Part shown: piece after piece, positions 19,558-31,614 of the stretch
Numbering within the stretch: the stretch's first letter is position 1
Layout of the letters: every line of letters starts with the position of its first letter
DNA from: a virus
Strand: one strand, 5' to 3'
IMG/VR virus record: IMGVR_UViG_3300006793_000023
Span: 1 to 64,000 of that record
Length of the DNA: 64,000 nt
The notes under the pieces: generated by a model
The model's database searches: none
Told to the model about the DNA's origin: nothing
What the model saw: the letters and a program-made list of their open reading frames with translations, nothing else
Made by a program: the position numbers and the translations under genes

Positions 19558-20346
19558 ATGGCACATTGTGTAGTAAGTTTAAGTGGTGGAATGGATAGCA
19601 GCACCCTATTGTTAAGAGCTATCGAGAAGTACGATACTGTAACAGGTATCTCATTTGACTATGGTCAAAAACACAGAGTAGAGCTAGAGAGAGCTCAATC
19701 ATTAATTAATTACCTTGCAAGTAAAGGTCACAAAGTAAATTACCGTCAAATTAAATTAGACGGATTAGTTGATCTATTAGACTCAGCTTTAGTTTCAGGT
19801 GGAGATGATGTACCAGAAGGACATTACGAACAAGATAATATGAAAGAAACAGTTGTTCCTAACAGAAATAAAATGTTTGCTTCCATTACTCAAGCAGTTG
19901 CATTATCCGTAGCAAATAGAACAGAAGATGTTTGTGATATTGCTTTAGGTATTCACGCTGGTGACCATGCAGTTTATCCTGATTGTAGACAAGAATTTAG
20001 AGATGCAGATGATGCAGCTTTTAGAATTGGAAATTGGGATGCGGAGAGAGTAGGTTACTTTACACCTTATTTAAATACTGATAAATTTGGTATTTTACAA
20101 GATGGAGAAATTTTATGTGCAAAGCTAAAAATTGATTTTGATGAAGTTTATAAAAGAACGAATACTTCTTATAAGCCTTATCCTTCGGGAAATAGTGATT
20201 ATAAGTCTGCTTCTAGTGTTGAGAGGATTGAGGCTTTTATTGCTCTTGGCAGAAAAGATCCCGTACAGTATGAGGATGAAACTGGAGAAGTTGATTACGA
20301 AGTAGCAAAAGCACACGTTGAAAAGGTTTTAGCTGACTATGTATAA
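19558..20346 (+). CDS. queC: 7-cyano-7-deazaguanine (preQ0) synthase QueC
   Basis: 262 residues. The PP-loop 'SLSGGMDSSTLL' (about 7-18) binds ATP; 'SFDYGQKHRVEL', 'VVPNRNKMF', 'ALGIHAGDHAVYPDCRQEF' and 'TPYLNTDKFGI' are QueC signatures. The enzyme converts 7-carboxy-7-deazaguanine to preQ0 using ATP and ammonia. The usual C-terminal zinc site (S-C...H-C-G-x-C-x-S-C-x-x-R) is gone: the four Cys positions align to Tyr205, Asp214, Ser217 and Ser220, while the flanking 'VERIEAF' is kept. It has its own promoter and structured leader. With folE, queD, queE, queF and dpdA in this window the role is DNA rather than only tRNA modification. Confidence 0.88.
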   Translation: MAHCVVSLSGGMDSSTLLLRAIEKYDTVTGISFDYGQKHRVELERAQSLINYLASKGHKVNYRQIKLDGLVDLLDSALVSGGDDVPEGHYEQDNMKETVVPNRNKMFASITQAVALSVANRTEDVCDIALGIHAGDHAVYPDCRQEFRDADDAAFRIGNWDAERVGYFTPYLNTDKFGILQDGEILCAKLKIDFDEVYKRTNTSYKPYPSGNSDYKSASSVERIEAFIALGRKDPVQYEDETGEVDYEVAKAHVEKVLADYV

Positions 20347-20524: not shown

Positions 20525-20637
20525 TGCCGAGTACCTCAGTAGGTAGAGGATTTTGACTTAACCTAACGCATAATAGAATACGATCGTGAAAAGCAATAGG
20601 GTCAGAAAAGACAGGGGTTCGAGTCCCCTCTCGGTTA
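20525..20637 (+). tRNA. tRNA-like element with a 38-40-base insertion in the anticodon loop
   Basis: The parts fit a class I tRNA except for the anticodon loop. The acceptor arm is TGCCGAG with CTCGGTT (20630-20636), then A. T-A is followed by the D-arm CCTC/GAGG (20534-20537, 20546-20549). The anticodon stem pairs 20551-20555 with 20603-20607, extendable to 7 pairs. The variable loop is AAGAC, and the T-arm is AGGGG-TTCGAGT-CCCCT (20613-20629). The anticodon loop would be 47 bases instead of 7. If the stem is shifted by one base, CTTAA at 20557-20561 could present anticodon UAA, but the identity is uncertain. CCA is not encoded. The insert is too small for a self-splicing group I intron. Confidence 0.5.
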
Positions 20638-23505: not shown

Positions 23506-23536
23506 GTTGCCTCTTAAAAATAAAATTACTATATTT
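23506..23536 (+). promoter_or_regulatory. Phage promoter (GTTGC-N19-TATATTT) for the queD-queE unit
   Basis: GTTGC at 23506-23510, a 19-base spacer and TATATTT at 23530-23536. The predicted start near 23543 lies just ahead of the riboswitch. Confidence 0.75.
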
Positions 23537-23550
23537 ATTTTAATATTAAC

Positions 23551-23580
23551 AGTGTCGTAGCACCACTATAAAAACACAAG
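23551..23580 (+). promoter_or_regulatory. preQ1-I riboswitch
   Basis: AGTG (23551-23554) pairs with CACT (23564-23567) around the 9-base loop TCGTAGCAC; the tail ATAAAAACACAAG ends one base before the ATG. The layout and letters follow class I preQ1 riboswitches: a short stem, a loop with a U-C-G-Y-A-G core and A-C at its end, and an A-rich tail whose C-A-A strand folds back on the loop. It lies in the leader of the queD and queE unit. A nearly identical element precedes folE at 26729. Ligand binding next to the start codon would probably block ribosome entry. Confidence 0.75.
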
Positions 23581-23581
23581 T

Positions 23582-23824
23582 ATGCAAGAAGAAATACACA
23601 AAGAGTTATGGGATAGAGATGAAAGAGAAATTCATCAAATCCAAGAAGGGATCTCAATAAACGGACAAAAAGTCCCAGATCCAAAATTACATCAAAGAAT
23701 TTCATTTATTAAATCAGCAATTCGTTTAGGGGCCTGCGCCTTTGGATTTTTCGGTATGTTTGAAATAGGATTTATTGGACTATTTTTAGCTGAAATAGTT
23801 GGAATTGGTGAAGAATTAGTTTAA
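23582..23824 (+). CDS. Small protein with hydrophobic C-terminal half, first gene of riboswitch-controlled unit
   Basis: 80 residues. The charged N-terminal half ('ELWDRDEREIHQIQ') is followed by two hydrophobic stretches (about residues 43-57 and 61-76) rich in Gly and Phe. Its ATG sits directly behind the preQ1-I riboswitch and queD follows after 9 bases. Position suggests a link with 7-deazaguanine metabolism, for example a small transporter or membrane factor, but no family is recognised. Confidence 0.6.
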   Translation: MQEEIHKELWDRDEREIHQIQEGISINGQKVPDPKLHQRISFIKSAIRLGACAFGFFGMFEIGFIGLFLAEIVGIGEELV

Positions 23825-23833
23825 ATTATAGAT

Positions 23834-24298
23834 ATGGGTAAATTTACATCAACAAAAGTATTTGACGGATTCTCTACAGTTTTTCGTCAATGGAAGGCAG
23901 AAGATACACACTGCCGATTCTTACATGGATACGGAACTTCAGTTAAAGTATGGTTTGAAGGAGAATTAGATGAGCGCAATTGGGTTTGGGATTTCGGAGG
24001 AATGAAAAGAGCAAAAGGAACTATCGACGGATTTAATCCTAAGGAATGGTTTGATTGGTTACTTGACCACACTTTTTTAGTAGCAGAGGATGATCCTTTT
24101 AAAGATTCTTTTCTAAAAATGCATGAAGCAGGAGTAGCTCAAGTAAGAGTAGTTCCTGCAACAGGAGCAGAAAAGTTTGCAGAATTTATATTTCTAAAAT
24201 TAAATCATTTCATTGATAAAGAAACTGAGGGTAGAGTAAAAGTAATTAAAGTAGAGTTTAGAGAACATCAAAAAAATAGTGCAATTTATGAAGCTTAA
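23834..24298 (+). CDS. queD: 6-carboxytetrahydropterin synthase QueD-like
   Basis: 154 residues. The 6-pyruvoyl-tetrahydropterin synthase fold is recognisable: 'FDGFSTVFRQW', 'CRFLHGYGTSVKVWFEGEL', 'WVWDFGGMK', 'WLLDHTFL' and 'ATGAEKFAEFIF'. Catalytic Cys27, Asp78/His79 and Glu113 are present. Two of the three usual zinc ligands are not: the H in F-S-A-A-H-R is Phe17, and the second His of H-G-H is Tyr33; His31 remains. QueD converts dihydroneopterin triphosphate to 6-carboxytetrahydropterin, the second step from GTP. Overlaps queE by 11 bases. Confidence 0.78.
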   Translation: MGKFTSTKVFDGFSTVFRQWKAEDTHCRFLHGYGTSVKVWFEGELDERNWVWDFGGMKRAKGTIDGFNPKEWFDWLLDHTFLVAEDDPFKDSFLKMHEAGVAQVRVVPATGAEKFAEFIFLKLNHFIDKETEGRVKVIKVEFREHQKNSAIYEA

Positions 24299-25145
24299 AA
24301 GAATTGAAGATTACAAGAAAGTACTTCCAATAGTAGAAGTATATACGGCAGTACAGTCAGAAGGCTCCAGACAAGGGTACCCTACTATTGTTGTAAGAAC
24401 ATCAGGTTGTACTCATAGATGTTATTTTGGAGAAGGAGGATGGTGTGATAGCTGGTATACCAGTATACATCCAGAAAAAGGAACGTTTTGCTTCCAGGAT
24501 ATTATGGATATGTACGAAGCAAATCCGCATATAAAAGAAATGATGCTTACTGGAGGTTCACCTACTATGCACCCAGCCTTAGTTAACGAATTAACACACT
24601 TTGCAAATGAAAAAAACATCTTTATTACTATTGAGACTGAGGGATCTCATTTTCTTAGGACCGATTATCCTATTAACTTACTTAGTATTAGCCCTAAGTA
24701 TAGTAATAGTATCCCCGTTGTTGGTGTTGAAACACCTCAGGGAGCTATAACAGACGAAAGAATGATAAAACGCCATAATAAATTTAGGCTTAATATTGAC
24801 GCTATATCAGATTCTATCATATACCATAAAGATTTTCATTTAAAACCAGTATTAGATAAAGAGTTGTCTATGATAAGTGAGGTAGAAGAATTTGTAGATA
24901 GACTATGTCAACTTTTACATGAAAAAGGATTTGGAGATGCTGACTACGGTACAGATGTTAGACCAATGGATATATCAGATATTAAAAAATGGATTCAAGG
25001 TAAGATATGGGCAATGCCTGCTGGAGATACTAGAGAAAGTTTAAAAGAATCATACCCAGTAGTTATGGATTTTGTTAGAGATAAAGGCTGGAGATTTACT
25101 GGACGTGCTCATATTATGGCTTTTGATACTGAACGTTGTGTCTAA
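24288..25145 (+). CDS. queE: 7-carboxy-7-deazaguanine synthase QueE (radical SAM)
   Basis: 285 residues from the ATG at 24288; a GTG at 24279 is less likely. 'VYTAVQSEGSRQGYPTIVVR' is the typical QueE opening (S-x-Q-G-E-G-x-x-x-G). The cluster motif reads 'SGCTHRCYFGEGGWCDSW', i.e. C-x3-C-x7-C rather than C-x3-C-x2-C, an insertion of the sort known in some QueE types. 'MLTGGSPTMHP' is the SAM-binding G-G-x-P. The enzyme contracts 6-carboxytetrahydropterin to 7-carboxy-7-deazaguanine. At about 285 residues it is longer than many bacterial QueE proteins because of extra C-terminal sequence. Confidence 0.85.
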   Translation: MKLKRIEDYKKVLPIVEVYTAVQSEGSRQGYPTIVVRTSGCTHRCYFGEGGWCDSWYTSIHPEKGTFCFQDIMDMYEANPHIKEMMLTGGSPTMHPALVNELTHFANEKNIFITIETEGSHFLRTDYPINLLSISPKYSNSIPVVGVETPQGAITDERMIKRHNKFRLNIDAISDSIIYHKDFHLKPVLDKELSMISEVEEFVDRLCQLLHEKGFGDADYGTDVRPMDISDIKKWIQGKIWAMPAGDTRESLKESYPVVMDFVRDKGWRFTGRAHIMAFDTERCV

Positions 25146-26702: not shown

Positions 26703-26720
26703 AATAAATTACTTATATTA
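26690..26720 (+). promoter_or_regulatory. Phage promoter (TTTGG-N19-TATATTA) for folE unit
   Basis: TTTGG at 26690-26694, 19 bases, TATATTA at 26714-26720. The predicted start near 26727 lies 2 bases before the riboswitch stem. Confidence 0.6.
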
Positions 26721-26728
26721 CATAAGTA

Positions 26729-26757
26729 TGTGTCGTAGAACCACAATAAAACAAAAA
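26729..26757 (+). promoter_or_regulatory. preQ1-I riboswitch
   Basis: TGTG (26729-26732) pairs with CACA (26742-26745) around the loop TCGTAGAAC; the tail ATAAAACAAAAA follows. The loop differs from the 23551 copy at one base and the stem differs by compensated changes (AGTG/CACT versus TGTG/CACA), which is covariation support for the fold. It lies 8 bases before the folE ATG, so control of translation is likely. Confidence 0.78.
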
Positions 26758-26764
26758 TTAAATT

Positions 26765-27478
26765 ATGCCTAAAAAGTTTATAGAAGGAACAGAATTAGTA
26801 AAAGCCGGATTCGCTAACGGTATTTCAACTCAATTAGCAGAGAAACAAAAAGTAGAAGGACCAGAAGCTAGACTTACTGATCATGAAAAGCAAGTTATTA
26901 TAGAAAGAGCAGCTCAAGCTTATGCTGACTTTTTAACTGCTTTAGGATGCGATTACAAAGAAGATCCTAACTCAGCAGATACTCCTTTTAGAGTAGCTAA
27001 AGCTTACGTTAATGATTTATGGGCCGGAAGATATAGTCCTCTAGATAAAATTACAGCATTTCCTTCAGACGGGTATGACGGTATAGTACAAGAGAGTAAC
27101 ATACCTGTAACGTCTATGTGTTCTCACCATCATCAAGCTATTAGAGGTACAGTAAGTATTGCTTATATAGCTTCAGAAGACGGTAAGGTAGTAGGGCTAT
27201 CTAAACTAAATAGAATAGTAGAACAATTCGGTAGAAGAGGAGCTATTCAAGAGCAGTTAACTGTAGCTATTCATAATGCAGTAGATAAGATATGTGAAGG
27301 TAATTTAGGAGTAGCAGTTCAAGTTAATGCAACTCATGCATGTGTATCTTGTAGAGGAGTTAAGCATGGAGGAGCTTCTATGCAGACAGCTAAACTTACT
27401 GGAGCCTTTTTAGACGAACCATCAGCTAAAGCTGAGTTTTATAAAAATATAGAATTAGCAGAAAAATGCAGTCATTAG
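26765..27478 (+). CDS. folE: GTP cyclohydrolase I
   Basis: 237 residues. The C-terminal domain has 'SMCSHHHQAIRGTVSIAYI' (zinc Cys and His, catalytic His), 'VVGLSKLNRIVEQFGRRGAIQEQLT' and 'THACVSCRGV' (second zinc Cys), all standard for FolE. It turns GTP into dihydroneopterin triphosphate, the first step to preQ1. The ~40-residue N-terminal extension is not conserved. Sits directly behind a preQ1-I riboswitch, so the pathway's entry step is probably feedback controlled. Confidence 0.93.
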   Translation: MPKKFIEGTELVKAGFANGISTQLAEKQKVEGPEARLTDHEKQVIIERAAQAYADFLTALGCDYKEDPNSADTPFRVAKAYVNDLWAGRYSPLDKITAFPSDGYDGIVQESNIPVTSMCSHHHQAIRGTVSIAYIASEDGKVVGLSKLNRIVEQFGRRGAIQEQLTVAIHNAVDKICEGNLGVAVQVNATHACVSCRGVKHGGASMQTAKLTGAFLDEPSAKAEFYKNIELAEKCSH

Positions 27479-28170: not shown

Positions 28171-28358
28171 TGGCAATAAAACTAGAAGAACATAAGGTTT
28201 ACGTAGATAGTCATAAAATGGAAATGGTGCCGTTAACTGTAGCAATAGAAGCAGTAAATCAAGCATTAAATCCAGATATAGAAAAGTACACAGAAGAGCT
28301 AGAAAATGCTATGGAAGAATTACGTAACTCCTTAAATAATATTAGTATAGATGATTAA
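28170..28358 (+). CDS. Small hypothetical protein
   Basis: 62 residues, acidic, with a helical C-terminus ('DIEKYTEELENAMEELRNSLN'). Its ATG shares a base with the previous stop codon and its end overlaps dpdA by 8 bases. Function unknown. Confidence 0.5.
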   Translation: MAIKLEEHKVYVDSHKMEMVPLTVAIEAVNQALNPDIEKYTEELENAMEELRNSLNNISIDD

Positions 28359-29151
28359 AATAGCTCACGAAAGCCCAAAAAGTATTTTTAGCGATGTACA
28401 AAAATATACAGACTACGATTATGCTCTAGTACATTTATTTGAGGAAGATAAAGAATACTTAAATCAATTTAAAGAAGCAGTATCAAAAGGAAGAGAAGTT
28501 ATATTAGATAATTCTATCTTTGAATTAGAGGAAGCATTTGATGCAGATAAATTCGCTCACTGGATTAATGAATTAAGACCTACATGGTATATAGTCCCTG
28601 ATGTACTAGAAGATGCTAAAAAAACTATGAGTCAAATGGCTAGCTGGAATATGCACTATTCGGATGTAGTTTTTGGTAAAAAAATAGGAGTAGTTCAAGG
28701 TAAGACCTATAAACAAATAGTTGCATGTTATGAATATATGGATAAAATAGCTGATGTAGATATGATAGCTATATCATTTGATTATTCGTACTATACAAAG
28801 ACGGTTCCTCATCCTAATAAATACGTTAGCTGGATGCTAGGACGTATAAAGCTACTTGGAGATTTAGTTAAAGACGGAATTATAAATGAAAATAAACCTC
28901 ATCATTTACTTGGATGCGGCTTACCACAAGAGTTTTCCTACTATTCTCAATACCCTTGGATATACTCTTTAGATACTAGTAATCCAGTTGTACATGGAAT
29001 AAAAGGCATTAAATATAACTCAGACGGATTATGGTCTAAAGAAAGTCAAAAGTTGTTTGAACTGATTAATTACGAGGTAGGGGATACAAATTTAATTTTA
29101 GGAAACATTCATAAATTTAGATGGTTAGCAAATGGCAGTAGAGAGTTATAA
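28351..29151 (+). CDS. dpdA: DpdA-like 7-deazaguanine DNA transglycosylase
   Basis: 266 residues with TGT-like TIM-barrel signatures in order: 'VILDNSIFELEEAF' (first active-site Asp, as in D-S-G-G-F of TGT), 'WYIVPDVLEDAKKT', 'IGVVQGKTYKQIV' (G-I-V-Q-G), 'HLLGCGLPQEF' and 'YSLDTSNPV' (second Asp, the nucleophile position). Known phage DpdA enzymes swap guanine in DNA for preQ0 or preQ1. Shorter than tRNA-type TGT and lacking its zinc site, as expected for DpdA. Surrounded by preQ1-pathway genes and followed by a DpdN-like gene. Which DpdA subfamily it belongs to cannot be told by eye. Confidence 0.78.
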   Translation: MIKIAHESPKSIFSDVQKYTDYDYALVHLFEEDKEYLNQFKEAVSKGREVILDNSIFELEEAFDADKFAHWINELRPTWYIVPDVLEDAKKTMSQMASWNMHYSDVVFGKKIGVVQGKTYKQIVACYEYMDKIADVDMIAISFDYSYYTKTVPHPNKYVSWMLGRIKLLGDLVKDGIINENKPHHLLGCGLPQEFSYYSQYPWIYSLDTSNPVVHGIKGIKYNSDGLWSKESQKLFELINYEVGDTNLILGNIHKFRWLANGSREL

Positions 29152-29326
29152 AATAGGAGATAAAGTAAAATTTAAGTTTATTGGCAGGCTTCAAGTAGGT
29201 ATAATAGAAGATATAAAAGAAGGAGTTCAGGTGGATATCTGTAAAGAAAAAATTAGATTTGATATTAAAGACGGTAAATATACTTACCCAGTTGGTTTGG
29301 AAAATATTATAGAAAAAATAAAATGA
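29132..29326 (+). CDS. Small SH3/KOW-like protein
   Basis: 64 residues. 'YKIGDKVKFKFIGRLQVGIIEDI' followed by 'VDICKEKIRFDI' looks like a small beta-barrel of SH3/KOW type. It lies between dpdA and the formyltransferase, overlapping both. Binding partner unknown. Confidence 0.55.
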   Translation: MAVESYKIGDKVKFKFIGRLQVGIIEDIKEGVQVDICKEKIRFDIKDGKYTYPVGLENIIEKIK

Positions 29327-29862
29327 ATAAACCTTGGATAGCATTTTTTAGTCAGACAGGGTCTGAGATTGTTAGTATTGCTAAAGCTCTTAATAGATGG
29401 CCAGATGTTATAGTAACTAATGAAAGACCTTCTAAACTTAGAACTATTAATTCAGCATTATTAGAACAGGATTTATTAGTTACAACTAGTAATAAACCTA
29501 CAGAAACTGAATTATCTGAGTTACTTGAATACTACGATTCTCCAATAATAACTCTTCATGGATGGTTGAGAATAATGCCTCCTAAAATTTGTGAAAGTTA
29601 TAATATATTTAACGGACATCCTGGCCTTATAACAGAATACCCAGAATTAAAAGGTAAAGATCCTCAAATGAGAGCTTTAAAAGAAGGGTACCCAGTAATG
29701 GGTTGTGTACTTCATAAAGTAGTTGCAGGAGTAGACGAAGGGAAAATCTTAGCAGAAGAAAGATTTAATGCTTTTAATATTAACGAAGAAGAAATGTGGA
29801 TAGCTACTAGAGATAGATCTCTTTACCTATGGGTTAAATTTCTTGAGAAAGCTTTAATATGA
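29323..29862 (+). CDS. Formyltransferase, candidate DpdN (dPreQ1 formyltransferase)
   Basis: 179 residues with the PurN/Fmt-like catalytic set: 'NGHPGLI' (Asn and His of N-x-H-P) and 'GCVLHKVVAGVDEGKIL' with the D-x-G Asp. These enzymes transfer a formyl group from 10-formyltetrahydrofolate to an amine. Literature on phage 7-deazaguanines describes a formyltransferase, DpdN, acting on the aminomethyl group of dPreQ1. Co-location with dpdA and queF makes that the best guess; a purine-synthesis role is the alternative. The N-terminal Rossmann part is short compared with PurN. Confidence 0.65.
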   Translation: MNKPWIAFFSQTGSEIVSIAKALNRWPDVIVTNERPSKLRTINSALLEQDLLVTTSNKPTETELSELLEYYDSPIITLHGWLRIMPPKICESYNIFNGHPGLITEYPELKGKDPQMRALKEGYPVMGCVLHKVVAGVDEGKILAEERFNAFNINEEEMWIATRDRSLYLWVKFLEKALI

Positions 29863-30702: not shown

Positions 30703-31614
30703 ATGTCAGACGTTAAAAATTATCAAGAAGTAGTAGAAATCGCTTCTAAACATTTAGGGAAAGTAGGAGGAGATGGGTACAAAGATACCTACGCTCCAGA
30801 ACTATTAGTTAAGGTACCCAGGTACTTAAACAGAGAAGGTTATGGATTAACCTCAGATAGCTTTGTAGGAGTAGACACTTGGAATTGCTATGAAGTATCA
30901 GCTATCACAACTAAGGGACTACCAGTAGCAGGTATGTTAAAAATTGTATGTCCTTCAGATAGTGAATATCACGTAGAATCTAAGTCAATTAAACTATACT
31001 TAAATTCATTTAATATGACACGTATAGGAGATAACTCAACAGACTGTATGGCAGTTATAGAAGCAAGAGTAAAGAGAGATTTAGATGAGCTACTAGAAAC
31101 TAACACAACTGTATCTTTCTACTCTTCAGAAGAAGATGGAAAAGCCTTTTCCTTTGAAGGATATACAGATCTTGGAGACATAGTAGATTTAGATCAAATA
31201 GATTTCACAGCGTTTAAATCAGATTCTTCTCAACTTTTAATCGAAGATAACTCAGACGATCCTATCGAAGTTAAGCTTAAATCTAATCTACTTAGATCAA
31301 ATTGTAGAGTAACAAATCAACCAGATTGGGGAGATGTATTTATTAGAATAAATGGTAGAGATGTACCTGCAGTAGATGCTTTAGCAAAGTATATTGTATC
31401 TCATAGAACTGTAAGTCATTTTCATGAAGAGATATGTGAAATGGTATTCAAGCACCTAATGGATGCCTATAAGCCAGAACAGTTAATGGTAGCATGTTTA
31501 TATACTAGAAGAGGAGGATTGGATATTAATCCTGTGAGAGCTACTCATCAAAGCTTGATACCAGACTTTTTTACAAAGCCAGATTTAAGAATTGCTAAAA
31601 CCTTAAGACAGTAG
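30703..31614 (+). CDS. queF: preQ0 reductase QueF (NADPH-dependent, long form)
   Basis: 303 residues. 'YHVESKSIKLYLNSF' is the QueF E-S-K-S-x-K-L-Y-x-x-S-F motif (NADPH site, about residues 89-103). 'SNCRVTNQPDWGD' has the catalytic Cys201 with Asp208 seven residues later. 'IVSHRTVSHFHEEICEMVF' and 'LYTRRGGLDINPVR' complete the tunnelling-fold signature. The length and motif order fit the long two-domain QueF of E. coli type. The enzyme reduces preQ0 to preQ1 with two NADPH. Its presence implies that preQ1, the ligand of the upstream riboswitches, is the base made for DNA. Confidence 0.9.
   Translation: MSDVKNYQEVVEIASKHLGKVGGDGYKDTYAPELLVKVPRYLNREGYGLTSDSFVGVDTWNCYEVSAITTKGLPVAGMLKIVCPSDSEYHVESKSIKLYLNSFNMTRIGDNSTDCMAVIEARVKRDLDELLETNTTVSFYSSEEDGKAFSFEGYTDLGDIVDLDQIDFTAFKSDSSQLLIEDNSDDPIEVKLKSNLLRSNCRVTNQPDWGDVFIRINGRDVPAVDALAKYIVSHRTVSHFHEEICEMVFKHLMDAYKPEQLMVACLYTRRGGLDINPVRATHQSLIPDFFTKPDLRIAKTLRQ

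Follow-up and report, generated by a model that had tools for sequence, protein, structure and literature searches.

Two copies of a probable, divergent preQ1-I type-II-like riboswitch ahead of the queDE and folE genes of a phage

Class-I preQ1 riboswitches are already known, and the structural consensus of their type-II form comprises a stem P1 closed by a G-C pair, A-C before the 3' strand of P1, an H-type pseudoknot helix P2 and an A-rich loop L3; it is located ahead of genes for preQ1 synthesis or transport (PMC11625349). Two of the four steps of P2 are canonical in the type-II aptamer, and in that of Thermoanaerobacter tengcongensis (Tte, PDB 3q50), which belongs to a translational switch, the pair G11-C30 is placed directly above the ligand (PMC11625349). 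The class I type II switch of Bacillus subtilis (Bsu) is transcriptional and has a terminator. Among phages, glutamine riboswitches have already been predicted in phage Melnitz and in pelagiphage Mosig (PMC9004378). Like the element described here they are predicted metabolite switches of marine phages, but the RNA, the ligand and the genes are unrelated, and Melnitz and Mosig lack glutamine synthesis, whereas the present phage appears to make the sensed compound itself (PMC9004378).

The window, i.e., the whole stretch of 64,000 nucleotides analysed here, comes from an IMG/VR virus record that is 71,620 bases long; its features are collected in Table 1. Copy 1 of the element reads AGTG-TCGTAGCAC (23555-23563)-CACT-ATAAAAACACAAG (23568-23580), and the ATG at 23582 follows a single base past it. 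An earlier note on this DNA had proposed a promoter, an AGTG/CACT stem, a loop and an A-rich tail ending one base before the ATG, all in front of a queD-queE unit. Stem, loop and tail are present, and the element is confirmed as real; a TATATT promoter-like box lies upstream, and its promoter activity is inferred. The unit does lie downstream, but its first gene is orf80, followed by queD and queE. The 80-aa orf80 protein matches no Pfam or PHROG family; orf80 is kept as the leading ORF of the riboswitch-preceded queDE unit in many phages. Having located copy 1 correctly, the note did not report a second copy, ahead of folE, which reads TGTG-TCGTAGAAC-CACA-ATAAAAC, with the folE ATG 12 nt downstream.

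Table 1. Positions of the riboswitch-like elements and of the associated genes in the window
Feature	Position	Strand	Basis or remark
queC	19558-20346	+	PF06508, E 1.1e-36; no aptamer in front (leader inspected)
TATATT promoter-like box of copy 1	23530-23535	+	sequence; upstream conservation in homologues
Copy 1 aptamer, preQ1-I type-II-like	23551-23580	+	sequence, covariation, shuffles, covariance model (47.6 bits)
Copy 1 stem P1	23551-23554 (AGTG) with 23564-23567 (CACT)	+	
Copy 1 L1, TCGTAG	23555-23560	+	
Copy 1 L2	23561-23562	+	
Copy 1 specificity C	23563	+	
Copy 1 L3, A-rich	23568-23574	+	
Copy 1 pseudoknot C	23575	+	
orf80, small hydrophobic protein of unknown function	23582-23824	+	first gene of the queDE unit
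queD	23834-24298	+	PF01242, E 1.1e-15; TIGR03367 below cut-off
queE	24294-25145	+	62-65% identity to annotated phage QueE proteins; TIGR03365 below cut-off
TATATT promoter-like box of copy 2	26714-26719	+	
Copy 2 aptamer, preQ1-I type-II-like	26729-26753	+	strict descriptor, leader survey, covariance model (43.2 bits)
Copy 2 stem P1	26729-26732 with 26742-26745	+	
Copy 2 L1, TCGTAG	26733-26738	+	
Copy 2 specificity C	26741	+	
Copy 2 L3	26746-26751	+	
Copy 2 pseudoknot C	26752	+	
folE (GTP cyclohydrolase I)	26765-27478	+	PF01227, E 8.4e-42
dpdA-like DNA guanine transglycosylase	28351-29151	+	80% identity to annotated DpdA of phage immuto
PurN-like formyltransferase	29323-29862		between dpdA and queF; same arrangement in phage immuto
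queF (preQ0 to preQ1 reductase)	30703-31614	+	PF14489 over cut-off; TIGR03138, E 5.2e-72, below its cut-off

The Tte sequence CUGGG-UCGCAG-UAAC-CCCAG-UUAACAAAACAAGG aligns readily with AGUG-UCGUAG-CAC-CACU-AUAAAAACACAAG of the window, L1 being equal to the Tte UCGCAG at five of six positions, and the Bsu sequence also aligns readily with the window copies (Tte and Bsu sequences: PMC10639078). Shared with Tte are L1 of the form UCG(C/U)AG, A-C before the P1 3' strand, the G-C floor, U6, C7, the pair G11-C30, an A before C30, the A-rich L3 and the placement at the start codon. The phage form differs from Tte in its P1 of 4 bp instead of 5, an L2 one base shorter, the lack of a Shine-Dalgarno sequence, its occurrence in phages, its two copies per genome (folE and queDE) and its being missed by the Rfam model RF00522. 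With Bsu it shares a near-identical tail (AUAAAAAACUAAG in Bsu, AUAAAAACACAAG in the phage) and an L1 of the CUAG/GUAG type; unlike in the Bsu switch, the ATG follows within 4-12 nt, too near the element to leave space for a terminator.

Relatives were gathered by protein similarity to the QueE, QueD and FolE of the window, and the same RNA-like motif is found in them ahead of queD, with a second copy ahead of folE. Viral contigs were scanned with the inner G-C pair of P1, L1 and part of the tail fixed, the other three stem pairs being left free. P1 is fully paired at four positions, only the closing G-C having been fixed, in 27 of the 30 distinct sites among the matches listed, and at three positions in two further sites; the stems comprise AGUG/CACU, UGUG/CACA, UGAG/CUCA, GGUG/CACC and GGAG/CUCC. 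The G-C floor pair closing P1 is present, as the search pattern dictates. Across the 37 rows of an alignment, A-U, G-C and U-A all occur at pair 1 and both U-A and A-U at pair 3, 100% of the P1 cells are paired (76% in shuffles), and the covariation score of 0.555, against 0.116 in shuffles, is attained in 0 of 500 shuffles and drops sharply when the partner strand is shifted. The cells are counts of sequences, not of independent events, and it is the 30-site scan that provides the unbiased test of P1, because the alignment was built from sites picked for pairing.

Comparison of the loop with the 3' tail supports a predicted H-type pseudoknot P2 between L1 and the tail. G11 and the tail C are conserved in the alignment; the tail C was required by most scans. 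The scan for members with L1 UCACAG, in which the bases after the tail C were left unspecified, yielded 12 distinct members, all ahead of queD or queE, and all 12 have G at tail position 33 (CACG), compared with 14 of the 83 U9 members (Fisher p 1.7e-7, relatedness not removed). The C9 side of that test includes one further site, L517, which is a chance match; it adjoins a likely tail tape-measure gene. In the U9 members position 33 does not always permit a 9-33 pair. G33 also stands opposite C9 in the Tte crystal structure, a likeness that holds on the phage side for the UCACAG members. The specificity C (C14) is invariant and A13 occurs in at least 90% of rows (alignment A1), while L3 is A-rich along P1, with A at columns 21-24 in all 37 rows. 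The type II mark, A-C immediately ahead of the P1 3' strand, is present, with the exception of UCGUAGCCC in the L040 group, and the marks of preQ1-I type I (U-C before the P1 3' strand, UU on the 5' strand) are not met, A-C and U-C(G) being found instead. The contact bases matching the published type-II description are G5-C16, U6, C7, G11-C30, the A-preceded C15 and A29 (PMC11625349). Rare L1 variants, UUGAAG and UCGGAG (L409, L430, L317, L332), retain P1, the specificity C and the tail; they are natural variants bearing on the ceiling of the pocket.

Within the window a strict descriptor matches copies 1 and 2 alone, against 0 matches in 300 dinucleotide-preserving shuffles. A covariance model made from the alignment yields exactly these two copies in the record of the window; in each positive phage genome its matches at E 0.01 are confined to one or two sites. 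Membership in the Rfam family RF00522 (PreQ1) is defined by a covariance-model score above the gathering threshold of 39 bits, and the match to it that the earlier note had called for is absent at copy 1, at the gathering level, at E 10 and in a search of 61 bases only. Nor does RF00522 match copy 2, in searches of the window and of the whole record, or any of five related loci; its only matches over the whole 71,620-base record are four weak ones, all elsewhere. The note would have considered its proposal refuted by a missing RF00522 match together with no ligand-dependent structure change; the former part is fulfilled, and the ligand part can only be inferred. The missing match is weak evidence against the element, because RF00522 is blind to the short variant in every relative tried, and the failure is judged to be a limit of the model's power, not an absence of the element. 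Single-strand folding (-3.0 and -1.3 kcal/mol) does no better than shuffles, and the minimum-energy fold of copy 1 is a competing hairpin; as the program excludes pseudoknots, this folding is uninformative.

The motif is tied to a single pathway. Across the related phage contigs, 78 of the 80 distinct instances precede folE, queD or queE, directly or via orf80, and the other two are truncated by the contig end. It is placed directly on queD in L013, L063 and L273 and directly on queE in L293 and L317, which indicates that the common target is the pathway, not orf80. The start codon is an ATG 4-12 nt past the motif in 92 of 92 distinct leaders, and an SD-like spacer occurs in none of the 92. 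Of 91 distinct homologues, 82 have TATATT in the 40 nt preceding P1, compared with about 17 in shuffles. The copies within a genome differ systematically: those ahead of queDE mostly have AGUG stems and C after UCGUAG, those ahead of folE mostly GAG or UGUG stems, A after UCGUAG and longer spacers to the ATG. These differences may give the two switches different thresholds.

With FolE, QueD, QueE, QueC and QueF as well as DpdA encoded, the phage has, in principle, what it needs to synthesise preQ1 and to incorporate it into DNA, the dpdA-like protein being the likely consumer of the pathway product. No aptamer was found before queC, dpdA or queF by the covariance model and leader inspection. 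In the isolated phage vB_FspM_immuto_2-6A (immuto), infecting Flavobacterium, the motif stands ahead of folE, and queF and dpdA are present; the window QueF is 64% identical to that of immuto. Judging from this kinship, the hosts of the present phage are probably marine flavobacteria.

The covariation of P1, that of L1 with the tail, the kept contact bases, the near-exclusive placement ahead of folE and queD/queE, and the full phage route to preQ1 including QueF all support the class-I preQ1 reading of the earlier note, binding itself being inferred. We hold with considerable confidence, in the absence of ligand-binding or expression data, that the element is a divergent phage-borne preQ1-I type-II-like riboswitch in two copies, an SD-less translational OFF switch exerting end-product feedback; both switches very likely sense preQ1 and lower its production, binding and switch direction alike being inferred. 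Transcription would begin just upstream, from the putative TATATT-box promoter, and the leader RNA would fold the 4-bp hairpin P1, along which the A-rich 3' tail is predicted to return and to pair with L1 (G11-C30 and the 9-33 pair) as an H-type pseudoknot. By homology to the Tte aptamer, preQ1 made by the phage through FolE, QueD, QueE, QueC and QueF would pair with the specificity C and lock the pseudoknot, and the locked fold may bury the A-rich start region and stop ribosome entry. Such a block is expected because only 4-12 nt separate the end of the pseudoknot from the AUG and no Shine-Dalgarno sequence is present; Bacteroidota seldom use Shine-Dalgarno pairing, so the SD-less leaders fit. 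Feedback would act on the entry steps, on folE, whose product uses GTP, and then on queDE with its leading small ORF, so that GTP could be spared while preQ1 is plentiful and the supply of preQ1 matched to DpdA insertion into phage DNA.

That the same fold recognises another ligand, preQ0, guanine or a phage-specific 7-deazaguanine, is unlikely but deserves attention, as the Tte type-II aptamer prefers preQ1 over preQ0 only 17-fold (PMC11625349), and the phage form departs slightly from known aptamers (4-bp P1, short L2, G8 to A8 variants). Here and in immuto, moreover, the PurN-like enzyme encoded between dpdA and queF might add a formyl group to preQ1 or to the modified base, formylated preQ1 being one such ligand. 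Against this, the known preQ1-contact bases are kept, among them the G of the floor pair, by which the aminomethyl group is read, and the motif is accompanied by queF in 32 of 32 assessable contigs among the 50 folE contigs, three folE contigs without queF being without the motif (Fisher p 0.024, uncorrected for relatedness). Cellulophaga phage phiST, with queDE and folE, has no motif, and no queF is annotated in the stretch viewed. The link between motif and queF is suggestive only, because 11 contigs without the motif before folE also have queF; some of them carry the queDE copy. It is likewise doubtful, though worth keeping in view, that the element forms a separate subtype re-tuned to a phage DNA-base precursor, e.g., formyl-preQ1 or preQ0, and blocking SD-less A-rich start sites, a platform undescribed for preQ1 switches.

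Protein-bound translational operators usually lie at start codons, and here two units of one regulon each have a short hairpin in exactly that place; a conserved-loop hairpin held by a phage or host protein, possibly a pathway enzyme, and repressing folE and queDE is nevertheless very improbable, as it would leave unexplained the conserved C-ended A-rich tail, the loop-tail covariation and the identity of loop and tail to known preQ1-aptamer contact bases. That the motif, lying just downstream of the conserved TATATT box, is a DNA-level element (operator or promoter part) conserved for transcription and not as RNA can practically be set aside, since the changes in P1 are compensatory in pairs and the spacing to the ATG is narrowly kept (4-12 nt), whereas TATATT lies anywhere from 0 to 23 nt away.

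In the bacterial genomes sampled, the phage form of the element was not recovered. A search for the phage form (R1) in 251 Flavobacteriaceae genomes found none, under strict filters, with few candidates scored and without a positive control, and RF00522 found none in 247 genomes of the class, again with strict filters and few candidates scored; a BLAST search of named phages with the 31-nt consensus gave insignificant partial matches only. The R1 result, for want of a positive control, merely hints at phage-borne evolution of the element. Scans with loose patterns, run on viral and genome contigs, returned almost only chance matches with P1 unpaired, which served as contrast; bacterial genome contigs with TCGTAGAACN6TAAAAACA gave 29 matches, 0 with full P1. 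No report of a phage preQ1 riboswitch was found in the open-access literature, subscription papers being outside the scope; what seems new here, priority not being established, is that stem and loop are short, that a phage carries the element, that it is placed twice, that the starts are SD-less and that RF00522 is blind to it. If the proposal is true, phages that write 7-deazaguanine into DNA run metabolite feedback through riboswitches of their own, set on the first pathway steps in two separate units. The family, overlooked by the public RNA model, offers a natural aptamer of very small size (about 25 nt with a 4-bp stem) and a case in which to test how riboswitches control start sites that lack Shine-Dalgarno pairing.

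Downstream of queC the window also contains a Rfam tRNA match (20525-20637; 113 nt, 41.8 bits) that is not reported by ARAGORN and for which blastn, with a query one base short, found no relative in named phages. About 38 bases seem to be added around its anticodon loop, perhaps as an insertion or an intron-like sequence.
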